A stretch of 64,000 nt of DNA from positions 2,344,363 through 2,408,362 of the forward strand of contig NC_015391.1 in assembly GCF_000195575.1 (NCBI RefSeq), in the 5' to 3' direction. The notes beneath the pieces are model-generated. The model saw only the letters and a list, made by a program, of their open reading frames with translations. It was not told where the DNA came from and did no database searches. The stretch's first letter is position 1. Each line of letters begins with the position of its first letter. Position numbers and translations under genes: made by a program. Positions 2,972 through 54,354 of the stretch are shown one piece after another. This stretch comes from Carnobacterium sp. 17-4 (GTDB lineage: Bacteria > Bacillota > Bacilli > Lactobacillales > Carnobacteriaceae).

Positions 2972-3003
2972 ATCTTATTCCTCTAAATAAAACTTTATTT
3001 TTC

Positions 3004-3034: not shown

Positions 3035-3072
3035 TAACAAGAAAAAACATTTTTAGAAACGGAGTACTTGAT

Positions 3073-3297: not shown

Positions 3298-3301
3298 ATT
3301 T

Positions 3302-4621
3302 ATGGAAAATAATACTGTTCAACGTCAGAAAAAAATTGTTGAAATTCTAACCTTACTTCATGAAGGTGGAGAGTTTGAAGAAGCAAAGCGTCTTTTTGAT
3401 GAGTCATTTGATGGCGTAGATGTCAGCGAAATTACATCTGCAGAAAGAGAGTTAATTGCTAGCGGTTTGGATCCTTCAGAAATTCAACATCTATGCAATG
3501 TTCATGCGGCTGTATTCAAAGGTTCTATTAGAGATATCCATCGTTCAAATTATGAACATGAATATCCTGGCCATCCCGTTCATACTTTAAAGCTAGAAAA
3601 CAGAGTGATCCACTCACTCTTAGAAGATGAAATTCAAGAAGTTTTTGACCGATTTGCTAACGGAGACTTTTCTCAAAAAGAACGGCTACAGCATGCTTTA
3701 TTAGATTTGACACAAATTGATAAGCATTATGCACGAAAAGAAACATTGATTTTTTCTTATATGGAACGGTATGGCATTACTGCACCACCAAAAGTTATGT
3801 GGGGTGTTGATGACGCTATCCGTGTAGCTATCAAAGATGTAAATCTTTATTTAAGTAGCGAAAAAGTTGCAATTAACCCTCTTAGGGATAAAATCAAACA
3901 CATCATAACAGAAGTAGAAGAAATGATTTTTAAAGAAGAAGAAATTATGGTTCCAATGGTTTTAGATGTTTTTTCCTTAACGGATTGGCAAAGGATTGCT
4001 GAAGATAGCTTAGATATTGGTTTTGCTTTTATTCCTAAACCTTTAAATTGGAAACCGAGTAAAGATGCTCTAGCACAAGAAAAAGATCAGCAAGAATCTC
4101 GGTCACAAGCAGCAAAAAATGCCGCTGCTATGACTGCAGCTATCTCGCAAGCTCCTCCTATTACCGAAACAGAACATTACGATTGGCAAGACGATCCATT
4201 AAGCGAAGGATCTATCGTTTTACCAACCGGTGTCCTTCAGTTAAAAGAATTAACGGCTATTTTTGGTGTTTTACCTGTAGATCTCACTTTCGTAGACAAT
4301 GAAGATCGCGTACGCTTCTATTCAGAAGGAAAGAATCGTGTTTTTCCCCGTACAAATTCTGTTATTGGACGCGAAGTGATTAACTGTCATCCTCCTAAAA
4401 GTATGCATATGGTTCAGAAAATTCTTGATGACTTTAGAAACGGAGAAAGAAATGAAGCAGAATTTTGGATTAATTTACGTGGAAAGATGATTTACATTCG
4501 CTATCATGCTATTCATGATCCTGAAACAACCAACTATTTAGGCTGTTTAGAAGTTACACAAGATATTACTGAAATTCAAAAAATCCATGGAGAACATCGA
4601 TTGTTGAGTGAGAGCAACTAA
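3302..4621 (+). CDS. DUF438 / hemerythrin-like / PAS sensor protein
   Basis: 439 residues. Order of parts: DUF438 N-terminal domain (about 1-85), hemerythrin-like helical region (about 90-230) with spaced His/Glu such as HPVHTLKLEN, DKHYARKETL and FKEEEIMVPM, an Ala/Gln-rich linker (about 255-290), and a C-terminal PAS domain (about 310-430) with the family motif INCHPPKSMHMV. Non-heme diiron binding and sensing of oxygen or nitric oxide are plausible from the family but not shown here. No output domain is visible, so signalling would go through a partner, perhaps the DUF1858 protein. Start codon follows AAGGAGTGAATTT. Confidence 0.85.
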   Translation: MENNTVQRQKKIVEILTLLHEGGEFEEAKRLFDESFDGVDVSEITSAERELIASGLDPSEIQHLCNVHAAVFKGSIRDIHRSNYEHEYPGHPVHTLKLENRVIHSLLEDEIQEVFDRFANGDFSQKERLQHALLDLTQIDKHYARKETLIFSYMERYGITAPPKVMWGVDDAIRVAIKDVNLYLSSEKVAINPLRDKIKHIITEVEEMIFKEEEIMVPMVLDVFSLTDWQRIAEDSLDIGFAFIPKPLNWKPSKDALAQEKDQQESRSQAAKNAAAMTAAISQAPPITETEHYDWQDDPLSEGSIVLPTGVLQLKELTAIFGVLPVDLTFVDNEDRVRFYSEGKNRVFPRTNSVIGREVINCHPPKSMHMVQKILDDFRNGERNEAEFWINLRGKMIYIRYHAIHDPETTNYLGCLEVTQDITEIQKIHGEHRLLSESN

Positions 4622-5419: not shown

Positions 5420-6313
5420 TTAATTCGCTACATTATTTTTATCATACACCGTTTGTTCAAAATGAGCCACAGCGCCAATCAAGTTAGCATCATTATGAAA
5501 TTCACAAACTTGAATGTTTAATTTTATATCATATGCCCTCTGACGTTCTAAATAAAAAGAAGTCCGTTCATGTAAACGTTGTATAAGGTCTTCTCTGACA
5601 GATATGCCCCCGCCAATAACAACCATATCAGGATTAAAACTAATAGAAAGATTATAAATTCCACGCGCCAAAGCATCAATAAGACCGTCCACATATTTAA
5701 CAGCCAGTGGTTCTCCTCTATCCGCTTCTTTAAAAAGATACTTTCCATCCACAACTGTATCTAATCCCATTTCTTTTCCATAGCGTTCTGCAGTATGAAC
5801 CGGACTTCCCATTTCACTTAACGTATGTTCACCATCTAACAACATATAACCAAATTCTCCTCCAAAAAGGTCTTTCCCTTTAAATAACTTACGATCAATA
5901 ACAACGGATCCACCAATACCAGAACCAATGATCAGGAACAAAGAGTGTTGGATATTTTTTGCAGCGCCATGCCACACTTCTGCTAATGCCGCACAGTTGG
6001 CATCATTTTCCATCGAAACTGGCACTCCAAATAGGTTTTCCCATTCTTTTTTTATTGAGAAAAAATGGAGATAAGGAACCGCACTGATTCCACTGATGGT
6101 TCCTTCTTGTGCATCAACAGCACCTGGAGCACTGATAGCCACACCCTTCACTGAATGATTTTTCGTAAAATTATGATAAACATTCATCATTTCTTCTTTC
6201 ATATCATCCCAATTTTTTGGTGTATAAAATGAACCTTTATTGCTTAACCCTTCATTTTCCCACAATCCAAATTTTACTGCTGATCCGCCGATATCAAATA
6301 CCACAATACTCAT
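5420..6313 (-). CDS. ROK-family sugar kinase, beta-glucoside kinase-like
   Basis: 297 residues, typical ROK length. The ATP-binding signature DIGGSAVKFG is at residues 6-15. The ROK core follows: SMENDANCAALAE with the catalytic Asp, GSGIGGSVV and GGEFGYM. The zinc motif CxCGxxGC of most ROK glucokinases is absent, and GGEFGYM replaces GGEIGH, as in the BglK-type beta-glucoside kinases of Listeria and relatives. It probably phosphorylates a sugar or beta-glucoside in the cytoplasm with ATP. Monocistronic by context. The exact substrate is uncertain. Confidence 0.85.
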   Translation of the reverse strand: MSIVVFDIGGSAVKFGLWENEGLSNKGSFYTPKNWDDMKEEMMNVYHNFTKNHSVKGVAISAPGAVDAQEGTISGISAVPYLHFFSIKKEWENLFGVPVSMENDANCAALAEVWHGAAKNIQHSLFLIIGSGIGGSVVIDRKLFKGKDLFGGEFGYMLLDGEHTLSEMGSPVHTAERYGKEMGLDTVVDGKYLFKEADRGEPLAVKYVDGLIDALARGIYNLSISFNPDMVVIGGGISVREDLIQRLHERTSFYLERQRAYDIKLNIQVCEFHNDANLIGAVAHFEQTVYDKNNVAN

Positions 6314-6489
6314 CTAGTCACTCCCCATCATTCAAAATAACACCGTTTTCATTTTGTTCGCTATTAAATATCATTTAATTTTTTTAAGTATTGAGTAATA
6401 CAAGCGCATAAGGAAATTCAACCTCTTTATTACCTTCTGTAAACTAAATTAGCATTACTACATGCAAAAGTCTATACATTTAATATACT

Positions 6490-6542
6490 AAACTACTCAT
6501 TCATTAAAAAATTTTTTTATTTTTTTAATGAATGAGTAGTTT
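6490..6542. repeat. 22-bp perfect inverted repeat in a divergent intergenic region
   Basis: The arms 6490-6511 and 6521-6542 are exact complements around a nine-base loop. Each end carries A or T runs like a bidirectional terminator, yet both flanking genes point away from it. The 366-base gap 6314-6679 otherwise holds only the two promoters' space and no gene I can support. Confidence 0.8.
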
Positions 6543-6679
6543 TCTGACATTAGAGCTCTCTTTGTTACCACTAAACAACCATAATTCCTATCTCCCCTAA
6601 TAAAATCGCTTATTTTTTCTATAATCTTTTATTTATGCTATGCTCTTATAAAAAGTAAAATAGAATAGAGGTAATTGAA

Positions 6680-7306
6680 ATGACAGGAATGACATGGGAA
6701 ATTCTAAATATTATTGGTACAATTGCCTTTGCAATAAGTGGTGCATTTATCGCAATCAAAGTAAACTATGATATCCTTGGAGTTTATATTTTAGGCTTTA
6801 CAACAGCATTTGGAGGAGGACTCATCCGTAATTTAGTCATTGGTATTCCTGTCCAAAATATTTGGATGCAAAGTACTTTATTTAAGTTTGCTTTTTTAGC
6901 GATTACCTTAGTATTGCTCTTTCCAAATATTTGGAATATTCTTTGGAAAATAAATAGCATCGAATTTTTTGATGCCATTGGTTTAGCAGCGTTTGCTATT
7001 CAAGGTGCAAATTATGCTGTTTCCACTGAAGTTCCAGCAGTTGCAGTCGTTCTTGCTGCTGTTATCACTGGTGCAGGCGGAGGGTTATTAAGAGATATGT
7101 TTGCCGGACGTAAACCTATGATTTTCCATTCAGATGTATATGCTCTATGGGCTGCAATCGCTGGATTGATTATTGGATTAAATTGGGTTAGTGGTCCATA
7201 TGTAACGATCATACTCTTCATTTCGATTGTTGTTTTAAGAGTGATGTCCCTTTACTTCAATTGGAGTCTGCCCCACTCTTTCTATCCAAAAAAAGAAAAA
7301 GACTAG
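6680..7306 (+). CDS. TRIC/UPF0126-family membrane channel protein
   Basis: 208 residues with about six to seven hydrophobic segments and the duplicated UPF0126 (YadS) repeat. The paired glycine-rich motifs GGGLIRN (near residue 46) and GGGLLRD (near 132) mark the two repeats. Prokaryotic members are related to TRIC trimeric cation channels, so it is likely a plasma-membrane K+/cation conducting protein; this comes from family knowledge. Start ATG 6680 follows AGAGGTAATTGAA. Single gene, with a bidirectional terminator after it. Confidence 0.9.
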   Translation: MTGMTWEILNIIGTIAFAISGAFIAIKVNYDILGVYILGFTTAFGGGLIRNLVIGIPVQNIWMQSTLFKFAFLAITLVLLFPNIWNILWKINSIEFFDAIGLAAFAIQGANYAVSTEVPAVAVVLAAVITGAGGGLLRDMFAGRKPMIFHSDVYALWAAIAGLIIGLNWVSGPYVTIILFISIVVLRVMSLYFNWSLPHSFYPKKEKD

Positions 7307-7345
7307 TTAAGTTTGATCAACATCATTAATACTAAATTTATCATT

Positions 7346-7410
7346 AAAAAGGCTAGTAAATAAGGAGCTCTCTTTCATGCAGAGAATTCTTTTACTTACT
7401 AGCCTTTATT
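7346..7410. terminator. bidirectional terminator between convergent genes
   Basis: AAAGGCTAGTAA at about 7347-7359 pairs with TTACTAGCCTTT at 7396-7407, with a further inner stem (CTCT/AGAG). It separates the TRIC gene (+) from the PAS-GGDEF gene (-). Confidence 0.75.
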
Positions 7411-26478: not shown

Positions 26479-27468
26479 CTAAGGTTTCAAAACCTTTTCG
26501 ATTTCGGCTAATTCTGAAGGAGAAAAATCAAGGTTATCTAATGCTTTGATATTATCCTCAATTTGACTTACCTTACTGGCACCAATCAATACACTTGTAA
26601 CTTTTCCATCTCTTAAAATCCACGAAACAGCCATTTCAGCTAACGTTTGACCTCGGCGTTTTGCGATTTCATTTAATGCTCTTGATTGCGCTATAGTATC
26701 ATTTACTTTTGCTTCGTCTAAGAACGGGCTTGTTGTCCGACCAGCTCTCGAATCCTTTGGAATGCCGTTTAGGTAACGGTCTGTCAACATACCTTGAGCT
26801 AAGGGACTAAACGCAATCGTTCCTAGTTGGTTTTCTTGTAAAACATCTTGTAGACCATCTTCTATCCAGCGGTTATACATGCTGTAAGAGGGTTGATGAA
26901 TAATGAAAGGTGTTTTTAATTCTTTAAATATCTTTGAAATTTCAGCTGTTTGTTCGGCAGAGTAATTAGAAATTCCAATATACAAAGCTTTACCTTGGCG
27001 AACCATTAAGTCCAACGCCTGTGCTGTTTCTTCAAAAGGTGTATCTGGATCTGGACGATGTGAATAAAAAATATCAACATAATCTAACCCCAAGCGCTTC
27101 AAGCTTTGATCAACACTAGCAGTCAAATATTTTTTAGATCCAAATTCGCCATATGGACCTGGCCACATGTCATAACCGGCCTTGCTTGAAATAATCAATT
27201 CATCACGGTAAGGAAGTAAATCTTTCTTTAAAATACGTCCAAAGTTTTCTTCGGCACTTCCTGCTGGAGGACCGTAATTATTAGCTAAGTCAAAATGGGT
27301 AATTCCCAAATCGAATGCACGGTGAACCATTTTACGGCTGTTTTCAAATAAATCCACATCACCGAAATTATGCCACATTCCTAAAGACAATGCTGGCAAT
27401 TTTAATCCACTGTTCCCCACACGATTGTAAATCATATTGTCGTAACGATTTTCTGCTGCTTGATACAT
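26479..27468 (-). CDS. aldo/keto reductase, glyceraldehyde-3-phosphate reductase-like (copy 1)
   Basis: 329 residues, AKR TIM barrel of the YghZ/Gpr type. The catalytic tetrad is visible as Asp and Tyr in FDLANNYGPP, Lys in ISSKAGYDMW and His in FYSHRPD; NADPH-binding SVLIGASKVSQIEDN is near the C-terminus. It should reduce aldehydes such as methylglyoxal or L-glyceraldehyde-3-phosphate. It is about 95% identical to the copy at 32958-33947 (17 differences) and shares its promoter region, so the duplication is recent. The two copies bracket the nrd operon. Confidence 0.9.
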   Translation of the reverse strand: MYQAAENRYDNMIYNRVGNSGLKLPALSLGMWHNFGDVDLFENSRKMVHRAFDLGITHFDLANNYGPPAGSAEENFGRILKKDLLPYRDELIISSKAGYDMWPGPYGEFGSKKYLTASVDQSLKRLGLDYVDIFYSHRPDPDTPFEETAQALDLMVRQGKALYIGISNYSAEQTAEISKIFKELKTPFIIHQPSYSMYNRWIEDGLQDVLQENQLGTIAFSPLAQGMLTDRYLNGIPKDSRAGRTTSPFLDEAKVNDTIAQSRALNEIAKRRGQTLAEMAVSWILRDGKVTSVLIGASKVSQIEDNIKALDNLDFSPSELAEIEKVLKP

Positions 27469-27671: not shown

Positions 27672-27719
27672 TCACTACATATTGTGTTATCATATTTTCG
27701 TAAGCACAACATATAGATT
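27672..27719 (+). promoter_or_regulatory. pair of NrdR boxes upstream of nrdI
   Basis: TCACTACATATTGTGT (27672-27687) and GCACAACATATAGATT (27704-27719) resemble the NrdR box ACACWATATNTWGTGT (about 14/16 and 12/16). Their starts are 32 bases apart, about three helical turns, the usual geometry for cooperative NrdR binding. The 302-base gap 27469-27770 otherwise carries the two divergent promoters. Confidence 0.65.
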
Positions 27720-27770: not shown

Positions 27771-28235
27771 ATGGCAAATAAAATAAACATTATCTACATC
27801 AGTCTAAACGGCAATACGAAATACTTTGTTGAGTGTTTAAGCGAGTACATAGAAGCAACTAAGGACATAGTTGTAGAATTGCTGAATATTAAAGACCTAA
27901 AAGGAGAAACTTTTCCAGTCGATGAACCTTTCGTGAGTTTCTTGCCGACTTATTTAAATGGTGGAAATGGAATCCATACAGGAGATAAGGAAGTATTAAC
28001 CACTAGACTAGGAGATTTTATAGTATCTAACGCTAACTTTAAATTCTGTTACGGAATTGTCGGAAGCGGAAACCGGAATTTCAATAATCAATTCTGTCTA
28101 AGTGCTAAGCAATATGCAGAAAGATTTGGTTTTCCTCTAATCGATGTCTTTGAATTACGAGGGACGCAGTCAGATGTAGAACGAATTGCCAACTTGATTA
28201 TTAATCATCATGAAGAATTTCTTAATGAACTTTAG
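27771..28235 (+). CDS. nrdI: NrdI, flavodoxin-like activator of class Ib ribonucleotide reductase
   Basis: 154 residues from the ATG at 27771 behind GAAGGAGACTTTTA (an upstream in-frame start at 27750 overlaps that site). The NrdI fold is evident from IIYISLNGNTKYFVECL (FMN phosphate loop), FLPTYLNGGNG and GIVGSGNRNFNNQFCLSAKQYA. It supplies oxidant from reduced FMN to build the Mn(III)2-tyrosyl radical of NrdF. First gene of the operon, 22 bases before nrdE. Confidence 0.92.
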   Translation: MANKINIIYISLNGNTKYFVECLSEYIEATKDIVVELLNIKDLKGETFPVDEPFVSFLPTYLNGGNGIHTGDKEVLTTRLGDFIVSNANFKFCYGIVGSGNRNFNNQFCLSAKQYAERFGFPLIDVFELRGTQSDVERIANLIINHHEEFLNEL

Positions 28236-28257: not shown

Positions 28258-30456
28258 TTGCCAAATCAAACAACTACTATCAAAAGCGCTAAAACATACT
28301 TTTATCTAAATAACCTTGTTAATATTCCAGTCAATGAGGAAATTCCTTTACAGAAGGATCAAGAAGCGCTAAAAGCTTACTTTGAAGAAGAAATCATTCC
28401 CAATACCTTAACATTTCCTTCACTAGAAGAAAAGTTGGCTTTTATGGTGGATAACAACTACATTGACTTAGAAGTTTTAACTCTTTATAAGCAAGATGAA
28501 AGTGATCAATATGATTTTGCATTTATTAAAAAAATATTCAAACAAATCTATGCCGCTAACTTTAAGTTCAAAAGTTTTATGGGCGCTTATAAATTTTACT
28601 CACAGTATGCATTGAAAACAAATGATCACTCAAAATACTTGGAACAATTTGAAGATCGCATTGCTTTTAATGCTTTATACCTAGGTAACGGAGATAGAAC
28701 ATTAGCTATTCAACTTGCTGAGGAGCTCATTTCGCAACGTTACCAACCAGCTACACCTACTTTTCTAAATGCTGGGAAAAAGAAACGTGGGGAAATGATT
28801 TCCTGTTTCTTAATTGATATTGCTGATTCAATGCTTTCTATTGGCCGAGGAGTAAACTCTGCTTTGCAGCTTTCTCGCATTGGTGGTGGAGTTGGTGTTA
28901 ACCTATCCAATATCCGATCAGCTGGCGATCCAATTAAAGATATCGCCAATGCTTCTTCTGGTGTTCTTCCAGTAATGAAGCTGCTAGAAGATGCATTTAG
29001 TTATAGTAACCAACTTGGGCAACGTAATGGCGCAGGCGTAGTCTATTTGAATGTTTTCCATCCAGATATCTTAGGCTTTTTGTCAACTAAGAAAGAAAAT
29101 GCAGATGAGAAAATACGGGTTAAAACACTTTCTTTGGGATTAGTCGTTCCTGATAAATATTATGAATTAATAAAAACAAATAAACCGATGTATCTATTTA
29201 GCCCCTACAGTGTAGAAAAGGAATATGGTATTCCGTTCTCATACATAGACCTGTCTGCCGAGTATGACAATATGGTTGAGAATTTGAACATCAAAAAAAC
29301 TCAAATCAATGCTCGAGAACTGGAGCAAGAGATTTCGCGTTTGCAACAAGAATCCGGCTATCCGTATATTTTAAATATTGATACAGCCAATAACACAAAC
29401 CCTGTGGATGGAAAAATTATTATGAGTAACTTATGTTCAGAGATTCTCCAACCGCAAGAACCTTCTACACTCAATGCTGACTTGTCTTATGAACAAACAG
29501 GTACAGATATTAGCTGTAACTTAGGCTCAAGCAACATTATGAATATGTTGCAATCTCCTAATTTTGCTAAATCCGTTAATTTAGCAGTTCGTGCATTAAC
29601 AACGGTCACAGATTCAAGCAATGTTTTAGAAGTACCGACTATTAGCAAAGGCAACTCTATGTACCATACGATTGGTTTAGGTGCTATGGGATTACATACC
29701 GCTTTAGCCTTGCACCAGATTGAATACGGTTCGAAAGAATCGATTGAATTCACTGAGGCTTACTTCTTGGCTTTAAACTATCATTCTTTGATAGCAAGTA
29801 ACGAGATAGCTCAAGAACGTGGAGAAACCTTTTTTGGATTTGAGAAATCCAAATATGCTGATGGCTCATACTTTAATCCTTATTTAGAAAGTGAATTCAC
29901 ATTAGTAAATGAAAAAGTAAAGAACATCTTTGTTAACATCCAATTGCCCACGGTTGCAGATTGGAAAGACCTAAAAGAAAAAGTCTTTCAGCATGGTTTG
30001 TATCACCGTAACCGTCTAGCCGTTGCACCCAACGGTTCTATTTCATATGTAAACGAAACGAGTGCATCCTTACATCCGATTACTCAACTTATTGAAAATC
30101 GTCAAGAGAAGAAAGTGGGCTCTATTTTCTATCCAGCACCTTTCCTTTCAAATGAAACTCTTCCTTATTACAAATCAGCTTATGATTATGATCAGCGTAA
30201 AATTATTGATATTTATGCCGCTGCTCAAAAACATATCGATCAAGGTATGAGCTTGACTTTATTTATGCGCTCAACACTTCCTGAAAATATATACGAATGG
30301 AAAACAGGCGTTTCCTCAAAACTAACAACTAGAGACTTGAATCGTCTGAGGAATTACGCTTGGACAAAAGGAATAAAATCACTTTACTATATCAGAACTT
30401 ATACCGAAGATGATGAATTTACAACGGCAAATACTTGTGAATCATGCATGATTTAA
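28258..30456 (+). CDS. nrdE: class Ib ribonucleoside-diphosphate reductase, catalytic subunit
   Basis: 732 residues from a TTG start at 28258 after AGGAGTGAATAACT. It carries the redox Cys in ISCFLI (Cys183), the active-site NLCSE (Asn391, Cys393, Glu395), the partner Cys in DISCNLGSSN (Cys420), a Tyr pair in SLYYIRTY for radical transfer and the C-terminal CESC pair (727/730) for re-reduction. It reduces NDPs to dNDPs with NrdF. No separate nrdH glutaredoxin-like gene is in the operon, so its reductant comes from elsewhere. nrdF1 begins 14 bases after its stop. Confidence 0.93.
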   Translation: MPNQTTTIKSAKTYFYLNNLVNIPVNEEIPLQKDQEALKAYFEEEIIPNTLTFPSLEEKLAFMVDNNYIDLEVLTLYKQDESDQYDFAFIKKIFKQIYAANFKFKSFMGAYKFYSQYALKTNDHSKYLEQFEDRIAFNALYLGNGDRTLAIQLAEELISQRYQPATPTFLNAGKKKRGEMISCFLIDIADSMLSIGRGVNSALQLSRIGGGVGVNLSNIRSAGDPIKDIANASSGVLPVMKLLEDAFSYSNQLGQRNGAGVVYLNVFHPDILGFLSTKKENADEKIRVKTLSLGLVVPDKYYELIKTNKPMYLFSPYSVEKEYGIPFSYIDLSAEYDNMVENLNIKKTQINARELEQEISRLQQESGYPYILNIDTANNTNPVDGKIIMSNLCSEILQPQEPSTLNADLSYEQTGTDISCNLGSSNIMNMLQSPNFAKSVNLAVRALTTVTDSSNVLEVPTISKGNSMYHTIGLGAMGLHTALALHQIEYGSKESIEFTEAYFLALNYHSLIASNEIAQERGETFFGFEKSKYADGSYFNPYLESEFTLVNEKVKNIFVNIQLPTVADWKDLKEKVFQHGLYHRNRLAVAPNGSISYVNETSASLHPITQLIENRQEKKVGSIFYPAPFLSNETLPYYKSAYDYDQRKIIDIYAAAQKHIDQGMSLTLFMRSTLPENIYEWKTGVSSKLTTRDLNRLRNYAWTKGIKSLYYIRTYTEDDEFTTANTCESCMI

Positions 30457-30470
30457 TAGGAGGGGAAATT

Positions 30471-31430
30471 ATGTCTTACTTACATTACAAAGCAATCAAT
30501 TGGAATGAAATCGAAGATAGTTTAGATCATTCAACTTGGGAGAAATTAACGTCATTATTTTGGTTAGACACTCGAATCCCTGTTACAAACGAAAAATCAC
30601 AATGGGAGGATCTTCCAGAAAATGAAAGAAAAGTATTTTTGAAAACGCTGGCTGGGCTAGCTTCAGTAGCTACTTTTCAATCTGAGAGAGGTTTCATGGT
30701 AATCGAAGAGGGAGAACACACTCAGCAAGAGGCTGCTATTTACAATAATATTCAATTTATTGAATCTGTTCATGCTAAAGCATACAACACAATCCTGATA
30801 GGATTTAACGAACCAAAAGAAGTTGATGATATCTTAATTTGGGCAGATAACAATATAGAACTTAAATACAGATTAGATCGTATTCTTGAAGTCTACAAGA
30901 CAGGAACTACACTTCAAAAGCGAGTAGCAAACTTAATCTTGGAAGGAGTCCTAACCTATAGTGGCCTCTTTACTCCGTTACTGTATTGGACACAGAAGAG
31001 ATTCACTAGCGTTGCTGAAATTATTAAGTTAGTTCTCACGAATGAATCTTTACATTGCTTCTATATTAGTCACAAATTCCAATTAGGTTTTTCTGAATTA
31101 TCACAACAAGAACAAACAGAATTGAGAGATTGGACTTTTGATTTGTTTGTTGATCTAGTAAACAATGAATTAAATTATATAGAACAAATTTACTATAGAA
31201 CAGACTGGCTTGAGGAAGTTAAAGATTTTATTCGACAACAAGCTAACAACGCTCTTAAAAGCCTGGGTTTTGACACGATTTACCCAGAATCGGCTACAAA
31301 TAATACCTATATTGATTCCATCAACGCTATCTTGACTAAAGTAACTCATCATGAAGTAGATAGTCAATCAAGCATCAGCTTCCAAGTTGATAAAGAAGAT
31401 CTAATGACTGAAGAAGACTACGACTTTTAA
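30471..31430 (+). CDS. NrdF paralogue 1, atypical radical subunit lacking a metal ligand
   Basis: 319 residues from the ATG at 30471, after AGGAGGGGAAATT. Numbering follows enterobacterial NrdF: Trp31, Glu98, His101, Tyr105, Glu158, Glu192 and His195 are present. However, the position of metal ligand Asp67 is Ala (LASVATFQ), and radical-transfer Asp191 is Asn (TNESLH in place of RDExxH). The conserved RYNANK, NPI and HDFF segments near the C-terminus are also changed. The extreme C-terminus EEDYDF, which docks on NrdE, is intact. It probably cannot form a normal dimetal-radical cofactor alone. A heterodimer partner for NrdF2, like yeast Rnr4, or a regulator is a reasonable hypothesis. Confidence 0.85.
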   Translation: MSYLHYKAINWNEIEDSLDHSTWEKLTSLFWLDTRIPVTNEKSQWEDLPENERKVFLKTLAGLASVATFQSERGFMVIEEGEHTQQEAAIYNNIQFIESVHAKAYNTILIGFNEPKEVDDILIWADNNIELKYRLDRILEVYKTGTTLQKRVANLILEGVLTYSGLFTPLLYWTQKRFTSVAEIIKLVLTNESLHCFYISHKFQLGFSELSQQEQTELRDWTFDLFVDLVNNELNYIEQIYYRTDWLEEVKDFIRQQANNALKSLGFDTIYPESATNNTYIDSINAILTKVTHHEVDSQSSISFQVDKEDLMTEEDYDF

Positions 31431-31492
31431 CAAATAAATTCAGAATTCAAACTTTAAAAGACTGGATTCTATTTTAAGGAGGAAAAATACCT

Positions 31493-32449
31493 ATGACTTC
31501 AAAGCATCAGGTAATAAATTGGAATAAAATTGAAGATGAATTAGATGATTACGTTTGGGATAAGGCAACCTCACAATTCTGGTTAGATACTCGTGTTCCT
31601 ATTTCAAACGACTTAGCTGACTGGCGAGAACTTTCATCTGTTGAACAAGAAGTTATTAAAAAGGTTGTCGGCGGTCTGGCATTACTAGATACATTACAGT
31701 CTGAAAAAGGTGTTAACGCTATGCGAGAGGATGTTCGTACTCATAAAGAAGCTGCTATTCTTAACAACTTTTTGTTTATGGAATCCATTCATGCGAAGAG
31801 TTATGGAACAATCCTAACTTCTTTGAACAGCATCAAAAGCATCAATGAAATTTATGATTGGATGAATAATGACGAACGGATGCAATACAAGGCAAAACGG
31901 ATTAATGATATCTATAAAACCGGTAATGCTTTGCAAAAGAAGATTGCAAGTATATTCTTAGAAGGTATTTTATACTATAGTAACTTCTTTGCTCCATTAT
32001 GGTACCGCGGCAGTAATAAACTTGCTAACTTAGCTGAGCTTATTAAATTGATTATCCGTGACGAATCAGTACATGGTACTTACTTAGGGTATAAATTTCA
32101 ATTAACTTATAATGAATTACCTGAAGAAGAGCAAAATAAATTGCTAGATTGGATGTACCCATTGTTAGAAGATTTGATGGAAAATGAATTAGCTTATACT
32201 GAAGAAATTTATAGCCACATTGGTATAGCCGAAGACGTTAAAACATTCGTTCGTTACAATGCTAATAAATCATTACAAAATATGGGTTTCCCAGCTTATT
32301 ATGACAATGCTGATTTAGCTGATGTTAACCCTATTGTAATGAATGGTATTTCAATTGAAACGTCGAACCATGACTTCTTCTCACAAGTTGGAGCTGGATA
32401 TCTTATGGGTGATGCTGAATCAATGGTAGATGAAGACTACGATTTTTAA
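31493..32449 (+). CDS. nrdF: class Ib ribonucleotide reductase radical subunit (canonical NrdF)
   Basis: 318 residues. All ligands are present: Asp66 (ALLDTLQ), Glu97 and His100 (FMESIHAKSY) with radical Tyr104, Glu in IFLEGILYYS, and RDESVH with Asp, Glu and His. RYNANK and NPIVMNG are conserved and the C-terminus ends DEDYDF for NrdE docking. It holds the dimetal-tyrosyl radical that starts catalysis in NrdE. It lies 62 bases after nrdF1 with its own AAGGAGGAAAAATACCT, so both NrdF proteins are made from one message. Confidence 0.93.
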   Translation: MTSKHQVINWNKIEDELDDYVWDKATSQFWLDTRVPISNDLADWRELSSVEQEVIKKVVGGLALLDTLQSEKGVNAMREDVRTHKEAAILNNFLFMESIHAKSYGTILTSLNSIKSINEIYDWMNNDERMQYKAKRINDIYKTGNALQKKIASIFLEGILYYSNFFAPLWYRGSNKLANLAELIKLIIRDESVHGTYLGYKFQLTYNELPEEEQNKLLDWMYPLLEDLMENELAYTEEIYSHIGIAEDVKTFVRYNANKSLQNMGFPAYYDNADLADVNPIVMNGISIETSNHDFFSQVGAGYLMGDAESMVDEDYDF

Positions 32450-32957: not shown

Positions 32958-33947
32958 CTAACGTTTCAAAATCTTTTCAATTTCGGTTAATTCTGAAGTA
33001 GAAAAATCAAGGTTATCTAATGCTTTGACATTATCCTCAATTTGGCTCACCTTGCTGGCTCCAATCAATACGCTTGTGACTTTTCCATCTCTTAAAATCC
33101 ACGAAACAGCCATTTCAGCTAACGTTTGACCTCGGCGTTTCGCGATTTCGTTTAGCGCTCTTGATTGCTCTAAGGTAGCTTTTACTTTTGCTTCATCTAA
33201 GAATTGACTTGTTGTCCGACCAGCTCTTGAATCTTTTGGAATGCCATTCAGATAACGGTCTGTCAACATACCTTGTGCTAAGGGACTAAACGCAATAGTT
33301 CCTAATTGGTTTTCTTGTAAAACATCTTGTAGTCCATCTTCTATCCAACGGTTATACATACTGTAAGAAGGTTGATGAATAATGAAAGGCGTTTTTAATT
33401 CTTTAAATATTTTTGAAATTTCAGCTGTTTGTTCAGCAGAGTAATTAGAGATTCCAATATACAATGCTTTACCTTGGCGAACCATTAAGTCCAATGCTTG
33501 TGCTGTTTCTTCAAAAGGTGTATCCGGATCTGGACGGTGAGAATAAAAGATATCTACATAATCTAATCCCATCCGTATCAAACTTTGATCAATACTAGCA
33601 GTCAAATTCTTTTTAGAACCAAATTCACCATAAGGACCTGGCCACATATAATAACCGGCCTTGCTTGAGATAACCAACTCATCACGGTAAGGAAGCAAAT
33701 CTTTCTTTAAAATACGCCCAAAATTTTCTTCGGCACTACCCGCTGGAGGGCCGTAGTTATTGGCCAAGTCAAAATGTGTAATTCCCAAATCAAATGCACG
33801 ATGAACCATTTCACGGCTGTTTTCAAATAAATCTACATCACCGAAATTATGCCACATCCCTAAAGACAATGCTGGCAATTTTAATCCACTGTTTCCCACA
33901 CGATTGTAAATCATATTGTCATAACGATTTTCTGCTGCTTGATACAT
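32958..33947 (-). CDS. aldo/keto reductase, glyceraldehyde-3-phosphate reductase-like (copy 2)
   Basis: 329 residues, about 95% identical to 26479-27468. The catalytic tetrad is kept (FDLANNYGPP, ISSKAGYYMW, FYSHRPD). Differences include Tyr for Asp in GYYMW beside the catalytic Lys and a small cluster KATLEQ for NDTIAQ. It has the same promoter layout and cre site. It likely shares the aldehyde-reducing function, with possible drift in specificity. Confidence 0.9.
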   Translation of the reverse strand: MYQAAENRYDNMIYNRVGNSGLKLPALSLGMWHNFGDVDLFENSREMVHRAFDLGITHFDLANNYGPPAGSAEENFGRILKKDLLPYRDELVISSKAGYYMWPGPYGEFGSKKNLTASIDQSLIRMGLDYVDIFYSHRPDPDTPFEETAQALDLMVRQGKALYIGISNYSAEQTAEISKIFKELKTPFIIHQPSYSMYNRWIEDGLQDVLQENQLGTIAFSPLAQGMLTDRYLNGIPKDSRAGRTTSQFLDEAKVKATLEQSRALNEIAKRRGQTLAEMAVSWILRDGKVTSVLIGASKVSQIEDNVKALDNLDFSTSELTEIEKILKR

Positions 33948-47483: not shown

Positions 47484-50081
47484 TTAACTGACATAAAATC
47501 TAAAAATCGTTTTTCCTTGTTCTTTCTCTATTTCAAGTTTCCCGTTATGCGCATGGATGATTGTTTTGACGATGCTTAGCCCTATTCCCAATCCGTTTTT
47601 TGAATCAACTGGAACTTCTTCATTCATCACTAAGTTATTCTGCAGTTTTTGAAATTGACTCGAAGGAATTTCACCATAGTTCACAATTTCAAACTGCACA
47701 AATTCTCCACTTTTCTTGATGATCAAAGAGACCTCTTTCATTTTATCTCCATGCCTAAATGCATTTTCAACTAAATTAAACAGTGCCTGTTCGATTAAAA
47801 TCGGATCTACATTAACAAATATTAATTCTTCCGGTAATGAAACAGCTAATTTTTGAACCGGGTACACCTTTTTTAATCGATTTAAAACAGCTTCGATGAT
47901 TTCTTCTAATGATTCATTGGTTTTTTTCACTTTCATCGTATCCATGTTAATACGCGTTATCGATAGTAAGTTTTCTACCATTCGTATTAGCCATTGAGAT
48001 TCTTCCTGGATATCCAATAACAATTTTTTTTTCGTTTCTTGTTTTATTTCTAGATCTTCATCTCCAAGTGTCTCTGCTATTCCTGAAATAGCTGTCAAAG
48101 GAGTCCGTAAATCATGAGAAATCGCTCGTAATAAATTGCTCCTGACTTTTTCACGCTCATTCTCAATCTGTATTCTTTTTGTTTCTTCTTTCAAATAGGA
48201 TTGTTCAAGCACAATAGCCAATTGAGTAACTATCAGTTTTAAATAGTTCAAATGACTGTTTTTTATTTCTTTATCTTCACTTTTTTCAATCCCTAAAACA
48301 CCTAGACTTTTTCCATTTAACACAATAGGCAAATAAAACCCTTTAGCACCCGTTAACGTGTCCGTACCATGTCCAGCTTCTTTTTGATTTTTCACTGACC
48401 AAAAAGCGACAGCTGCTTCATCTGTAGAATCCAATACCGACGCGGTATCCTCAAGTGTTTTAAGACTTTTTTTATGACCATTATTATCATAGACAATGAC
48501 TTCGTGATTTAATAAGCGTGATAAAAAAATAGTGGTGCTATTAAAGATCTGCTGATTGGTTGTTGCTATGATATAACGTTTATTCAACTCATACAGTATT
48601 TCCATCTGTTGCTCTTTTTCTTTCGAGGTAAGGGCTCGTTTCTTTAAGCGTACCATTAAGTTACTGACCATCAATGCTACCATCAGCATGATAAAAAGCG
48701 TTATAGGGTATCCCTCTTTATAAACGGTCAACGAATACAAGGGTTCAACAAAGAACCAGTTGAACGATAATACACTCACAATAGAAGACAATGCACTCCA
48801 GAAATAACCGGAAGTCAACCGAGCTGTCACTAAAACACATAAAATAAAAACCAGCATCAGATTTTGTTCACCAAAGTGCAAATAATGTAAAATTTCTGTG
48901 ATTAAGGTCGCAGCAATGACTCCACCAAACGCGATAGCAAAGTCCCTTACTCCACCTTCAATGACTTCATCAAAAGAGAAAATGGGCTGATTTTTTTTTT
49001 CCTTATAAGGAATAAGATGAATCTCAGTTTCAACTAGTCGTTTAATGAGTCGATCTTCAAATGATTCAAAAAAGACCCCTTGGTACCACTTCTTCGTGAG
49101 ATTTTTTCCTATTATGATATCTGTAGCACCAATCATTTTAGAATATTCCACGATGGTCTCAAAACTATCTTCCGCTTCAATACTAATGACTTCGGCACCC
49201 AGTTTTTCGGCAAGAGGAATCGTATCAGGAGTTTCATCTAAGGAGCGAATCTGGATAACCACCCACTCAGCACCCACCCCTTGAGCCAGCCTGGAACTCC
49301 AACGGATACATTTTTCTGCCATCTTAGGATAGGTATCCTCAATAATCGTCAATAGTTTACTTTGGATTCCGATTGTTTTTGCACTAACACGATTAATATG
49401 ATCAGACGCTCGTTGAATCGCTAAACCTCTAAGTTGATCTAGTTTTTCAATGATAAAGAAATTTCTCAGCGCTTGTATTGCGCTCTCATTGGAATATATT
49501 TTCCCTTGTTCAAGACGCTCAATCAATTCATTTGGTTCAACATCGATCACTTTTAAAACAGCATGCGTGAAAAATGTATCTGGAACTGTTTCTTTCATTT
49601 CAATCCCAGTTACTTCTTCAACAATATCATTTAGGCTTTCTACATGTTGAACGTTAATAGTTGTGAATACATTGATTCCAGCATTCAATAACTCATCTAC
49701 ATCTTGATACCGCTTCTTATTTCTAGAACCTTCTGCATTCGTATGCGCTAATTCATCAATCAAGACAATATCCGGAGACAACTCAATTAGCTTATCAATA
49801 TCTGGTTCGCAAAGCGTTAATTGTTTATAAGACAGTTTTTTCACTGGAACTGTAGGAATACCTTCCACCAATCGATTTGTATCTGGTCGGTTATGAGGTT
49901 CAATATATCCTATAACAACAGTTTTACCCATGAGTATTAACTCATGGGCTTCCGATAGCATTCCATAGGTTTTGCCTACTCCAGCTGCAAAACCAAAGAA
50001 CACTCTCAATTTACCACGTTTTGTATCTTCAAATTGAATTTTTCTTAATATTTTTTCAGTTTTCTGGTTCATTCCATCCAT
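47484..50081 (-). CDS. kdpD: KdpD sensor histidine kinase
   Basis: 865 residues, full length. N-terminal KdpD domain with Walker A GFAAGVGKT (near 29-37), USP-like domain (about 250-360), four membrane helices (about 385-490), GAF-like region, HisKA with AISHDLRTPLTAISGIAETL (His near 655) and HATPase with NLVENAFRHGD and GIGLSIV. Senses low K+ or osmotic state and phosphorylates KdpE. Confidence 0.95.
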   Translation of the reverse strand: MDGMNQKTEKILRKIQFEDTKRGKLRVFFGFAAGVGKTYGMLSEAHELILMGKTVVIGYIEPHNRPDTNRLVEGIPTVPVKKLSYKQLTLCEPDIDKLIELSPDIVLIDELAHTNAEGSRNKKRYQDVDELLNAGINVFTTINVQHVESLNDIVEEVTGIEMKETVPDTFFTHAVLKVIDVEPNELIERLEQGKIYSNESAIQALRNFFIIEKLDQLRGLAIQRASDHINRVSAKTIGIQSKLLTIIEDTYPKMAEKCIRWSSRLAQGVGAEWVVIQIRSLDETPDTIPLAEKLGAEVISIEAEDSFETIVEYSKMIGATDIIIGKNLTKKWYQGVFFESFEDRLIKRLVETEIHLIPYKEKKNQPIFSFDEVIEGGVRDFAIAFGGVIAATLITEILHYLHFGEQNLMLVFILCVLVTARLTSGYFWSALSSIVSVLSFNWFFVEPLYSLTVYKEGYPITLFIMLMVALMVSNLMVRLKKRALTSKEKEQQMEILYELNKRYIIATTNQQIFNSTTIFLSRLLNHEVIVYDNNGHKKSLKTLEDTASVLDSTDEAAVAFWSVKNQKEAGHGTDTLTGAKGFYLPIVLNGKSLGVLGIEKSEDKEIKNSHLNYLKLIVTQLAIVLEQSYLKEETKRIQIENEREKVRSNLLRAISHDLRTPLTAISGIAETLGDEDLEIKQETKKKLLLDIQEESQWLIRMVENLLSITRINMDTMKVKKTNESLEEIIEAVLNRLKKVYPVQKLAVSLPEELIFVNVDPILIEQALFNLVENAFRHGDKMKEVSLIIKKSGEFVQFEIVNYGEIPSSQFQKLQNNLVMNEEVPVDSKNGLGIGLSIVKTIIHAHNGKLEIEKEQGKTIFRFYVS

Positions 50082-50097
50082 AGTGACATCCTTCCCA

Positions 50098-50625
50098 CTA
50101 TTGAAGTTCGTCTAAAGCTCGATTCAAATCCATAATGTTCACGTATTGACGATTTGAAAATAAGTCTGATTCGCTATTTTCAACTATTATATCACTTATA
50201 GCCTTACTGTTGATATTTCTATTTTCAGCGATTCGTTCGATTTGAAATTCTGCCGCTGAGATACTGATATGTGGATCAACTCCACTGGCTGAAGCCGTTA
50301 CTAGATCGATCGGTACTTCTGATTTAGTAGGATTTTTTATTAATTGTTCATCTATTCTTTTCTCTACAATTGTTGCTTGTTCTTCAGAAAATGGAGACAA
50401 TTGGCTAATTTCTGAACTTCTACCAGAAAAGTATTTGTCATCTTCAAACTGTTGGCCGATCAATGATGAACCCATCAGTTGTTCATTTATGGTGATCTGA
50501 CTGCCATTTGCCTGATGTAAAAAAAATAACTGTCCAATTCCTGTCATCAACAAGGTATATACCCCGCCGAAAAAGAGGATGCTTATTCCTAAAAATCGCA
50601 AACTTGCCCAAAATGTTTTTTTCAT
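50098..50625 (-). CDS. kdpC: KdpC subunit of K+-transporting ATPase
   Basis: 175 residues, slightly short for the family. One N-terminal membrane helix (about 12-34), then the periplasmic-side domain with YFSGRSSEIS, DLVTASASGVDPHIS and AAEFQIERIAENR. Needed for assembly and substrate affinity of KdpFABC. 10 bases after kdpB. Confidence 0.93.
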   Translation of the reverse strand: MKKTFWASLRFLGISILFFGGVYTLLMTGIGQLFFLHQANGSQITINEQLMGSSLIGQQFEDDKYFSGRSSEISQLSPFSEEQATIVEKRIDEQLIKNPTKSEVPIDLVTASASGVDPHISISAAEFQIERIAENRNINSKAISDIIVENSESDLFSNRQYVNIMDLNRALDELQ

Positions 50626-50635
50626 TGTTCTCCTC

Positions 50636-52666
50636 CTATAAGATTATCCAAGACAATAACATATCGATTAATTTTATTGAGATAAATGGTGCAATGATCC
50701 CGCCTAATCCATAAACTAAAAGATTGTATCGTAAAATTTGACTGGCGGATTTTTCTTGATAGCGTATACCTTTTAAAGCTAATGGTATTAACGCAACGAT
50801 AATGACCGCATTGTAGATAACAGCTGATAAGATTGCAGTCAAAGGACTTCCCAATCCCATTACATTTAGAACGCTTAATTCTGGATAAATACCATAAAAC
50901 AGTACGGGTATCACTGCAAAATATTTCGCTATATCATTAGCAATACTAAAAGTCGTCAACGCTCCTCGAGTCATTAAAAGCTGTTTTCCAATTCTTACGA
51001 CTTGAAGGAGTTTGGTCGGACTTGAATCTAAGTCAATAAGGTTTCCAGCTTCTTTAGCCGCTTGAGTTCCTGTATTCATGGCCATTGCTACATCCGCTTG
51101 GGCTAAGGCGGGCGCATCGTTCGTACCATCTCCCGTCATGGCAACCAAATGGCCTTTTTCTTGGTACTCTCGAATCAGGTTCATTTTATTCTCAGGAGTT
51201 GCTTCGGCAAGGAAATCATCTACTCCTGATTCTGCTGCGATTGCTGCGGCCGTTAGAGGATTATCTCCGGTGATCATAATCGTTTTAATCCCCATTTTTC
51301 TCATATCAGCAAATCGTTCTTTAACACCGTTTTTAACGATATCTTTTAAATAAACCACTCCAAGCACTTGTCCGTTCTTCACAACCACTAAAGGAGTTCC
51401 TCCAGCACGTGCGATCGTCTCAACTATTTCGTCACATCCGGGAGGGTACATATTTCCTTTCGACTCAACATATTTTTTTATTGTATCGGCGGCTCCTTTA
51501 CGAATTTCATCGCCACCGTAGTCGATTCCGCTCATCCGAGTTTTTGCACTGAAGTCAATAAATTTCACTTCTGCTTTTTGCAGTTCTCTTTCTCGGATGT
51601 TGAATCGCTCTTTTGCTAGGATCACGATGCTACGACCCTCTGCTGTCTCATCGGCTAATGAAGAAAGTTGAGCTGCATCTGCAAGTTGTTTCTCACTGAC
51701 ACCGCTAACCGGAAGAAATTCACTGGCGCGTCTATTCCCTAACGTAATGGTCCCTGTTTTGTCTAAAAGTAAGATGTCAACGTCTCCAGCAGCTTCAATC
51801 GCTCTACCACTCATGGCAATAACATTTTCCTTGGTCAATCGACTCATTCCTGCAATCCCTATAGAAGAAATCAATGCGCCAATCGTTGTTGGCGCTAAGC
51901 AAATCAGTAAAGCGATGACAATCACACTAGATAGAGTTTCCCCTCTCCCTGATACCTGGCTACTAAAATTAGTAAAAGGTACTAAAGTAATAGAAACCGT
52001 TAGAAAAATAATCGTTAATGTGATTAAAAAAATCTGTAATCCTATTTCGTTAGGTGTCTTCTTTCGATGTGTCCCTTCAACCATTGAAATCATTTTATCC
52101 AAAAAGGATTGTCCAATTTCAGATGTGACTCGGATAACTAAATAATCTGAAACGACTGTTGTTCCTCCAGTCACTGCACTTCTGTCCCCACCCGATTCTC
52201 GGATAACTGGCGCTGACTCTCCAGTAATGGCACTCTCGTCAACCGAAGCTGCGCCTTCGACGACATCACCATCTGCCGGTATTTGTTCCCCAATTTTTAC
52301 ATAAACCAGATCTCCTTTTTTTAAATCTGAAGAGTTCGTTTCGATCAACTGGTCATTTTTTATATCTTCTAATTTTTGTATTTTATGAGTGATCACATCT
52401 TTTTTTGCTTTTTTAAGACTGTCCGCTTGAGCTTTCCCTCGCCCTTCTGCAATGGCTTCTGCAAAATTTGCAAATAATAGCGTCAACCATAAGAAGAACG
52501 TTATCGTTAAACTAAACCACATTGGAACAGAATGATCTGTAAAGCTTAAGATGGTGGTCAAAATAGCACCGACATATACAATAAACATGACGGGATTCTT
52601 AAGTTGTTCTCGTGGATCTAATTTTTTAAATGACTCTCTAATGGCCCATTTGTAAACATTTTTCAT
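50636..52666 (-). CDS. kdpB: KdpB P-type ATPase subunit
   Basis: 676 residues. P-type landmarks: actuator ITGESAPV, phosphorylation site [11 protein letters not shown] (Asp near 303), KGAA nucleotide-binding region, TGDN and [13 protein letters not shown] hinge. Seven membrane helices. Hydrolyses ATP to drive K+ uptake through KdpA. Confidence 0.95.
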
Positions 52667-52677
52667 TTTGGTTCCTC

Positions 52678-54354
52678 CTATTTAATAGAGAAAAAATCTG
52701 CGATTGGCCCTAACGCCAACGCTGGTAAAAAGCTAAGTGCTCCAATAACGACGATGATAATAATCAGCATAGTGACAAAAGTTGAATTAGTAGTGGACAG
52801 CGTTCCTTCGCTCAATGCTGCTTTTTTCTTGCTGCCCATATTTTCTGCTAAAAATAAAATAGCTACAATTGGAAGGAATCTGGATAACGTCATCAGAAGG
52901 CTTCCTAGTAAATTCAAGAAAGTCGTATCTGCTAATAATCCACCAAACGCGCTCCCATTATTATTTGCAAGAGAAGTAGCTCCATATAAAATTTCACTAA
53001 AACCGTGAGCTCCAGTATTGGTCAACCAAGACATTACATCTGGATGCATCGTCATAGCCATGGCTCCAAAAAGTGTTAGCATCAATGGGGTCAACACTAC
53101 TATACCGGCCATTTTGATATCAAATGCATCAATTTTTTTCCCTAAATATTCTGGTGTTCTTCCTACTAATAACCCTGCAATAAATACTGTTAGTATCAAG
53201 AATGCAAGCATTCCATATAATCCACTACCGGCTCCACCAAATATAATTTCGCCAAGTTGCATCAAGAACATCGGAATAGCTCCGCCTAAGGGAGTAAAAC
53301 TGTCCAACATCGAGTTGATTGATCCATTTGAAGCAGCCGTGGTACTAATGGCCCATAAACTAGACCATCCTATCCCAAAACGCATCTCTTTTCCTTCTAA
53401 GTTCATTGATTCTGCCACATTCACAAATGCTGGTCCAAAACTTTCACTGACTACAACACCCACAAAAGCCAGCACTGCAAAGAATAGTGAAGCAATCATG
53501 ATTGTTCTGCCTTGTTTCCAATCCTTGACCCAGAATCCAAAAGTAACGATCAATGCTGCTGGAATCAGTAATATACTAATATTTTCTACAAAATTTGATA
53601 ACAGCGTTGGATTTTCAAATGGGAAAGCTGAGTTGCTTCCAAAAAATCCTCCACCATTTGTTCCCAGTTGTTTGATAGCTACTTGACTAGCCACAGGTCC
53701 TAAATACAGCCATAACTCTTGTCCTTCAAATCCTTGATAAGCTACTCCTTGACTCAAGGTTTGAACCGTTCCTTGCGAGATTAAGATAATCGCTACGATA
53801 ACTGACAGTGGAAATAGCGTATAAAGTAAACTTCTCGTTAGATCTTTCCAAAAGTTTCCTATCAACTTCGTTCGCTTTTGCGTAATACCTCTAAATAAGG
53901 TACATACGACTGCCATTCCTACACCTGCTGAAACAAAATTTTGAACAGTTAATCCAAACATTTGTGAAAAGTTAGAAAGACTGGTTTCTCCAGAGTATGC
54001 CTGCCAGTTGGTATTGGTCACAAAACTGACTGAAGTATTGATGGCTAAATCCAATGACATATTTGCAACATTCTGTCCTCCAGGTAGAAAATGCTGCGTC
54101 ATTAATAATACCGTTAGAAATACAAATGATAAGATTGATAATATTAAAATGGACAAGAGATACCTTTTCGCACTCATATTATTTTGACTTACAGATCCCA
54201 GAATCTTATATACCCCATTCTCTAGCGGTTGAAGAAAACGCACATACTTAGGTATTTTCCCTTGCATCGTCTCCTTTATGTACCAACCTAAAGGGATCGA
54301 AATTAATATCAATACAAAGAAAAAGAACATACCTTGAAACATCATACTGCTCAT
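52678..54354 (-). CDS. kdpA: KdpA K+-binding channel-like subunit
   Basis: 558 residues, about ten membrane helices with four selectivity-filter-like loops: [34 protein letters not shown] and [15 protein letters not shown]. Start ATG 54354 overlaps the kdpF stop (ATGA). K+ entry path of KdpFABC. Confidence 0.95.

Follow-up and report, generated by a model that had tools for sequence, protein, structure and literature searches.

Tandem NrdF genes in Carnobacterium sp. 17-4 and in plasmids of lactic acid bacteria: a probable non-catalytic partner subunit in a class Ib ribonucleotide reductase

Why should an operon for ribonucleotide reductase (RNR) carry, beside a complete gene for the small subunit, a second such gene whose product lacks residues needed for the chemistry? 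The question is raised by a stretch of 64,000 nucleotides of Carnobacterium sp. 17-4 (NC_015391.1, positions 2,344,363 to 2,408,362), which as a whole is referred to here as the window, and in which the genes nrdI, nrdE, nrdF1 and nrdF2 follow one another, all on the plus strand, between positions 27771 and 32449. NrdF is the class Ib small subunit, beta; we use beta' for NrdF1 and its relatives, and partner for the NrdF encoded beside each of them. A sequence-only reading of this DNA had proposed that NrdF1 either forms a heterodimer with NrdF2 or regulates NrdE by docking on it, and this idea remains the best reading of the locus, being partly supported and strengthened by a wider family of similar genes. 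We consider it probable that NrdF1 and NrdF2 form a beta-beta' subunit of a class Ib RNR, with beta' as a partner that serves structure and docking but not catalysis, in analogy to yeast Rnr4 beside Rnr2. The features concerned, in window positions, are these:

27771 to 28235, plus strand: nrdI, assembly flavoprotein of the long-loop type (NF002714, 208 bits against a cut-off of 190); ATG at 27771 with AGAAGGAG upstream
28258 to 30456, plus strand: nrdE, class Ib catalytic subunit alpha, with a TTG start (TIGR04170, 1067 bits against a cut-off of 750)
30458 to 30465, plus strand: nrdF1 ribosome binding site, AGGAGGGG, ahead of ATG 30471
30471 to 31430, plus strand: nrdF1, encoding beta' (NrdF-like, predicted non-catalytic partner), 319 amino acids (PF00268, 187 bits; TIGR04171, 289 bits against a cut-off of 355)
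30669 to 30671, plus strand: codon GCT for Ala67, replacing a metal-ligand Asp (Asp in 123 of 123 other NrdF rows)
31041 to 31043, plus strand: codon AAT for Asn191, replacing the radical-path Asp (Asp in 123 of 123 other NrdF rows)
31380 to 31382, plus strand: codon TTC for Phe304, replacing the tail Tyr equivalent to E. coli Y356 (Tyr in 123 of 123 other NrdF rows)
31416 to 31427, plus strand: C-terminal docking motif D316-Y317-D318-F319 (316 D, 317 Y and 319 F retained in 13 of 13 beta')
31476 to 31482, plus strand: nrdF2 ribosome binding site, AAGGAGG, ahead of ATG 31493
31493 to 32449, plus strand: nrdF2, canonical class Ib beta, 318 amino acids (TIGR04171, 435 bits against a cut-off of 355), with six ligands, radical-path Asp and tail Tyr present

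Both nrdF genes, placed in one operon by the sequence-only reading, have their ribosome binding sites; an alternative, longer in-frame start for nrdF1, at 30444, lies inside nrdE. Residue counts and alignment likewise confirm that NrdF1 has Ala67 and Asn191 and retains Trp31, Glu98, His101, Tyr105, Glu158, Glu192, His195 and the EEDYDF end, and that NrdF2 is canonical, its six metal ligands, Tyr and RDESVH all present at numbers one lower than in NrdF1. We take Asp191 to be a member of the Trp-Asp-His radical path. A third loss had been overlooked, for NrdF1 has Phe304 where other NrdFs have a tail Tyr (GAGYLMG in NrdF2). Every class I RNR characterised to date conserves this residue, Y356 in E. 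coli, which is essential because it relays the radical between subunits (PMC8463856). An Asp beside a ligand Glu is near-universal among R2 (small-subunit) proteins (PMC3824934), and its equation with Asp191, by motif, is our own match.

NrdF1 is accepted by PF00268 (gathering score 33.6) but fails the TIGR04171 cut-off, as do four other beta' at 159-188 bits, whereas NrdF2 passes it; the six-ligand set of class Ib is incomplete in NrdF1 (Ala67) and in all 13 beta' compared here, and complete in NrdF2. Beta' resembles class Ib NrdF, with its Mn2-Tyr radical, in fold, in its operon with nrdI and nrdE, in the tail motif and in PF00268, and departs from it in the TIGR04171 score and in lacking Asp67, Asp191 and the tail Tyr. 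Outside the window, at C2:1347397-1348335, the genome encodes a third NrdF, which is canonical and accompanied by an nrdE and an nrdI of its own.

Is NrdF1 simply a gene in recent decay? Matches to it at an E value of 1e-90 or better (72-100% identity) occur in six of 18 Carnobacteriaceae genomes, its own included, and the other 12 are without one; the orthologue in Desemzia incerta is 82% identical, and the record of that species and genome G008, identical in both proteins, were counted once. All six NrdF1s stand in tandem with an NrdF2 orthologue, and all have Ala67 and Asn191, with Phe or Leu at 304. The pooled ratio of nonsynonymous to synonymous substitution rates (dN/dS), from ten pairs of five species with G014 left out for its differing length, is 0.137 for NrdF1 (bootstrap 0.103-0.180, 60 replicates) against 0.025 for NrdF2. 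NrdF1 is thus about five times looser than NrdF2, yet clearly constrained. Recent decay is rejected, since neither of the signs of it named in the sequence-only reading, Asp67 and Asp191 in the orthologues or relaxed selection, was found: the orthologues retain Ala67 and Asn191, and NrdF1 is under purifying selection, if looser than that on NrdF2.

The distribution of beta' extends well beyond this family. The idea, from a first order-wide search with NrdF1, that beta' is confined to one family was overturned by plasmid records with two nrdF places. The order nrdI-nrdE-beta'-beta was read in Latilactobacillus sakei, Enterococcus faecalis and other Enterococcus species, Lactiplantibacillus plantarum, Lactococcus lactis and Pediococcus pentosaceus, so that beta' is spread over Carnobacteriaceae, Lactobacillaceae, Enterococcus and Lactococcus and is frequently plasmid-borne, with about 210 plasmid records; the nrdI of some tandem operons is missing from gene tables and present in the DNA. 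A query with the L. sakei beta' gave 165 plasmid records whose best place has at least 60% identity, out of 441 matching at E 1e-5. The Lactococcus-type query gave 44 at E 1e-60, 38 of them at 80% or more and six below 60%, and the three of these six that were listed are annotated as the same gene. A third type is present on five E. faecalis plasmids. At least 14 of 395 sampled genomes of the order carry beta', a lower bound to which three queries contribute 6, 7 and 1 after canonical NrdF matches were discounted (7 of 13 for the NrdF1 query, 3 of 10 for the second). An exact DNA pattern of the beta' N-terminus found its own genome only among 398 genomes of the phylum, a narrow pattern that diverged beta' could escape. 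Among 50,697 phage records 738 match NrdF1, all below 60% identity at the best place and counted without inspection of individual matches; an L. sakei-type operon is present on one contig of a viral collection.

Thirteen operons were compared in detail, five of them from plasmid records, for which the replicon is established. Beta' lies immediately upstream of beta in these operons and directly after nrdE in 12 of the 13; the remaining locus (L145 of genome G281, 1888-4390) has nrdI-beta'-beta and lacks nrdE over the 8.5 kb read, which suggests a tie between beta' and beta that does not depend on a linked NrdE. The beta' frames are intact in all 13, at divergence down to 22% identity. These data bear on the possibility that NrdF1 is a decaying, functionless duplicate, which was already disfavoured and which we regard as the least credible of the explanations considered. 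It would account for the evolution of NrdF1 about five times faster than NrdF2, and broken copies are known: a frameshifted L. plantarum copy (L112), one listed in two pieces (H136), and two Enterococcus faecium copies limited to the N-terminal third (H89, H90), one of them followed by a transposase gene (L115). Set against it are the pooled dN/dS in Carnobacteriaceae and values of 0.09-0.36 between pairs of L. sakei-type beta', the intact frames, and the gene order and docking tail common to all 13 operons (one without nrdE). In L115, from an E. faecium plasmid, the stretch 5500-7377 has nrdI and then a beta' gene that stops after about 110 residues; an annotated IS30 transposase gene lies directly behind it.

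How consistent are the losses? Of 150 NrdF places, nine were set aside, six as repeats of a gene already included and three as broken or cut copies, leaving 141 aligned rows. Asp67, Asp191 and the tail Tyr are present in 123 of 123 rows other than beta' and in none of the 18 beta' rows. As the 18 include near-duplicates, a reduced set was formed from the 13 operons and eight outside controls (Enterobacter, Corynebacterium, two Bacillus, Paenibacillus, Allomeiothermus, Sinorhizobium and a class Ie NrdF of Lactobacillus gasseri), which matter because the 123 rows are mostly close relatives. Here the three residues are kept in 0/13 beta', 13/13 partners and 8/8 outside controls. Chance is excluded as the source of the substitutions by these counts over the 141 rows, together with Ala67 and Asn191 in all six Carnobacteriaceae genomes.

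A known alternative chemistry does not explain the losses either. In class Ie, NrdF is metal-free, has a 3,4-dihydroxyphenylalanine (DOPA) radical and carries QSK or VPK, three glutamates being replaced (PMC11846895). Beta' is likewise an NrdF derivative with altered metal ligands, but the Carnobacteriaceae beta' show the reverse pattern, with Glu98, Glu158 and Glu192 kept and Asp67 lost, and Lys192 occurs in 0/13 beta'. The V/P/K control retains Asp67, Asp191 and the tail Tyr, precisely what NrdF1 has lost, so that class Ie identity, which the sequence-only reading had denied, is rejected. The operon of this control, nrdF-nrdI-nrdE with V/P/K ligands, lies on a mobilizable Lactobacillus gasseri plasmid (L130, 3435-7009) and is annotated as class 1b. 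Could beta' instead be a new kind of radical generator, one that uses another metal site or a modified Tyr105 and is as surprising as class Ie once was? In favour of this, Tyr105, His101, Glu98, Glu158, Glu192 and His195 are all kept in Carnobacteriaceae; we nevertheless think it very improbable, as Asp191 is lost in 13/13 beta' and Tyr105 in 5/13, the class Ie control keeps all three residues, and the tail Tyr, conserved in all class I RNRs characterised (PMC8463856), is lost in 13/13.

Beyond the three universal losses, the metal site of beta' is preserved to varying degrees. The 13 beta' keep Trp31 in 13, Glu98, His101 and Glu158 in 11 each, Tyr105 in 8, Glu192 and His195 in 6 each, and Asp316, Tyr317 and Phe319 in 13, while the 13 partners keep every one of the positions in this census. 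Of the six metal ligands, the Carnobacteriaceae beta' retain five and the seven beta' belonging to the L. sakei/Pediococcus/E. faecalis branch two or three; in that branch Glu192 and His195 are gone, and Tyr105, Glu98 or Glu158 in some. His101 is lost in two of the six beta' outside it. Judged by these residues, beta' is a protein in which catalysis decays while docking does not. At 112 columns with at least 98% invariance across the 123 rows, the share of sites still matched by nine beta' representatives is 73% in residues 1-50, 64% in 51-110, 43% in 111-150, 41% in 151-205, 41% in 206-262, 23% in 263-300 and 52% in 301-319. Sixteen positions are lost in all nine, Asp67, Asp191 and Tyr304 among them, and W11, D16, D19, W23, W31, D33, R35, W45, E87, K103, L161, Y198, K202, D316 and Y317 are kept in all nine. 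Because the beta-beta interface lies in the N-terminal half and alpha is contacted by N-terminal auxiliary structures and the C-terminus (PMC8463856), the best-surviving parts would be those needed for dimerisation and docking, with the chemistry lost.

Within Carnobacteriaceae, the point estimates of dN/dS for residues 1-110, 111-205, 206-300 and 301-319 are 0.078, 0.112, 0.221 and 0.236 in NrdF1, and 0.035, 0.010, 0.029 and 0.006 in NrdF2; constraint in the first 110 residues is thus tightest in NrdF1 and loosest in NrdF2, each compared with the rest of its own chain. AlphaFold2 models give an R2 fold both for the window beta' (mean local confidence, pLDDT, 76.8; predicted template-modelling score, pTM, 0.81) and for an L. 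sakei-type beta' (79.9 and 0.78), with low confidence in the tail. The best Foldseek match of either is the Mn2-NrdF 4n83, at E 9.8e-17 and TM 0.75/0.84 for the window protein.

R2 chemistry argues strongly that beta', having no normal dimetal site, radical-path Asp or relay Tyr, should neither make nor pass a radical, and that it is catalytically dead is well supported by the sequences. One dead half would be tolerable, since class Ia operates by half-of-sites chemistry, for which Ib (an asymmetric complex) and Ic also give supporting evidence (PMC8463856). There is also a precedent: yeast Rnr4, in which three iron-binding residues are missing, evolves faster than Rnr2 and conserves its dimer surface; it heterodimerises with Rnr2, cannot hold a dimetal site and is required for Rnr2 activation (PMC2704937, PMC3267527). 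We therefore adopt the beta-beta' reading as the probable one. NrdF2 would bind the dimetal site, generate the tyrosyl radical with NrdI and pass it through its own tail Tyr into NrdE. NrdF1, with its R2 fold, N-terminal helices and NrdE-docking tail kept, would be unable to make or relay a radical and would most likely pair with NrdF2, contributing structure and docking to the idle half of the holoenzyme, as Rnr4 does for Rnr2. We infer that NrdF1 and NrdF2 heterodimerise physically and that NrdF1 stabilises beta and its cofactor.

Does beta' belong with beta or with NrdE? In a tree of 45 rows with outgroups, one row per operon, the 13 beta' group together as a clade (96/98), as do the 13 partners (100/100), and the inner orders of the two are nearly equal, with G236 and G310 swapped. 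Distances among beta' correlate with those among beta over the 13 operons (r 0.921, p 0.0001, slope 4.25). For the 12 operons with nrdE, beta' correlates at 0.915 with beta, 0.829 with NrdE and 0.840 with NrdI; with NrdE held constant the partial correlation of beta' and beta is 0.69, and with beta held constant that of beta' and NrdE is 0.10. The second option of the sequence-only reading, developed as a rival, is that beta' is a homodimeric or monomeric decoy that docks on NrdE by its tail, blocks or tunes the active beta and so regulates the output of deoxyribonucleoside triphosphates. The docking tail in 13/13 and the loss of the radical relay Tyr in 13/13 would suit such a protein, as would the position of beta' directly after nrdE in 12/13 operons. 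We rate it unlikely, though less so than the other rivals: residues 1-110 are tighter than the last 19 by the point estimates given above, beta' tracks beta and not NrdE with the other held fixed, the nrdI-beta'-beta locus exists without an adjacent nrdE, and constant co-transcription with beta would presumably be unusual for a switch. Of the two options, the heterodimer is the somewhat better fit because of the constraint on residues 1-110, the locus lacking nrdE, and beta' distances that track beta over NrdE.

The NrdIs bear on a further possibility, that beta' is an assembly factor which transiently helps NrdI or manganese to reach beta, or holds beta open, outside the working enzyme. The tandem-operon NrdIs are of the long-loop type, with 25-34% identity to four other aligned NrdIs (the model NF002714 was scored on the window NrdI alone, which has 30-32% identity to the NrdIs of three non-tandem operons). 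Long-loop NrdI in all aligned tandem operons is in keeping with such a factor, and so are the persistence of nrdI-beta'-beta without nrdE in one genome and the five of six ligands left in Carnobacteriaceae. It is nonetheless an improbable account, as 7/13 beta' have two or three ligands only, a tail with the NrdE-docking motif should be unneeded for assembly alone, and a long-loop NrdI occurs without the tandem in Weissella (L096).

Several observations weigh against a beta-beta' heterodimer. A 62-row tree without class Ie or proteobacterial outgroup places the 18 partner rows in one clade (100/100) and splits beta' into two groups, without resolving it as a single clade; like the 45-row tree, it comes with long-branch warnings. 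The four genes of the operon diverge together, with r 0.83-0.93, and linkage alone therefore explains much of the beta'-beta correlation. The losses in 13/13 beta' may be one ancestral event and so do not amount to 13 independent losses. With five of six ligands and Tyr105, the Carnobacteriaceae NrdF1 might still bind metal. Conservation of the N-terminal part is no proof of dimerisation, as this part also contacts NrdE (PMC8463856), and the regional dN/dS values are, again, point estimates. Among 23 positions at which nine partner betas share a residue found in fewer than 10% of other NrdFs, 12 lie within residues 1-110, an enrichment that is not significant (p 0.06). Because canonical NrdFs were present in the AlphaFold2 alignments, the beta' models are drawn toward the canonical fold. 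Finally, an annotated tpx gene separates beta' from beta on one Enterococcus plasmid (Enterococcus sp. ZQ21, L114).

We lean towards a plasmid-mobile bacterial class I RNR in which an obligate beta-beta' replaces the symmetric beta2, and which with its long-loop NrdI would be a separate class Ib subtype, arisen once in Lactobacillales, its dead chain at varying stages of metal-site loss. If this is true, the half-of-sites asymmetry that is transient elsewhere would here be fixed genetically, one chain making and conducting the radical and the other docking and stabilising. The best-known RNR that combines a live with a dead small subunit is yeast Rnr2/Rnr4, and a second, apparently independent case in bacteria would make the asymmetric beta-beta' a repeatable outcome. 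It would also offer a natural system whose halves are separable by gene, in which the radical carrier, the NrdI binder and the working of a single engaged half can be addressed, while the graded ligand loss across beta' would show which parts of R2 are needed after catalysis is gone. On many plasmids of food and gut lactic acid bacteria, the operon bears the annotation "ribonucleotide-diphosphate reductase subunit beta", which would conceal a loss of function.

As in yeast, one canonical R2 is accompanied by a faster-evolving paralogue without one or more metal ligands, and the likeness to Rnr4 extends to catalytic losses in one paralogue beside a canonical partner and to faster evolution under purifying selection. 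In contrast to yeast, the proposed bacterial pair is class Ib, linked to NrdI, contained in a single operon and often plasmid-borne, and the losses common to beta' are Asp67, Asp191 and the tail Tyr. Beta' presumably arose within NrdF, independently of Rnr4; the 45-row tree holds no eukaryotic R2. Second R2 copies in many organisms can yield beta-beta' heterodimers (PMC3824934, introduction), and apicomplexan R2_e2, though eukaryotic, is like beta' a divergent second R2 beside an orthodox one. Five of six iron ligands and the Asp beside the ligand Glu are identical across five R2-type clades, with few exceptions (PMC3824934), whereas beta' has lost the Asp that we match by motif to Asp191. A non-functional beta' polypeptide is also known in the class Ia enzyme of E. 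coli, where the beta-beta' form has half-site reactivity (cited in PMC5154197); that beta' is a truncated beta-polypeptide of one strain, and the one described here is a separate, conserved gene. A bacterial beta-beta' has been speculated upon for the short nrdB of Liberibacter, citing the E. coli work (PMC5154197). In the part of a 2010 survey consulted, plasmid pGdh442 carries NrdE, NrdF and NrdI and a second nrdF is unmentioned (PMC3019208), and for an L. pentosus plasmid both nrdF genes are tabulated with metal binding assigned to both (PMC6662855). In the open-access PMC literature, which was drawn on in part and leaves subscription papers outside its scope, we found no description of a bacterial pair of live and conserved dead NrdF.

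Upstream of the operon are two sites resembling the NrdR box, with mismatches counted to a box consensus:

27672 to 27687, plus strand: NrdR-box-like site 1, 5' of nrdI, 2 mismatches
27704 to 27719, minus strand: NrdR-box-like site 2, 32 nucleotides from site 1, 3 mismatches

Both are largely conserved across four aligned upstream regions, which at most suggests that the operon is under normal RNR control; matches to the consensus number 8 over the window, near the 6.0 expected by chance. A scan for promoters and terminators did no better than chance level. The plasmid operons of Lactococcus and Enterococcus (L113, L114, L137, L138) adjoin a divergent gene for a regulator of the Crp/Fnr family, which may couple them to oxygen or redox state.

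The operon in the window is flanked by two closely similar genes of the same orientation, at 26479-27468 and 32958-33947, both on the minus strand, the first scoring as an aldo/keto reductase (PF00248). Direct repeats of 300 nucleotides (89%), 82 nucleotides (83%) and 77 nucleotides (73%), spaced about 6.45-6.48 kb apart, are present, and recombination between them could lead to loss or duplication of the operon. Farther downstream, at 47484-54354 on the minus strand, are genes for Kdp potassium transport: KdpA, an E1-E2 ATPase in the KdpB position, and the sensor kinase KdpD.

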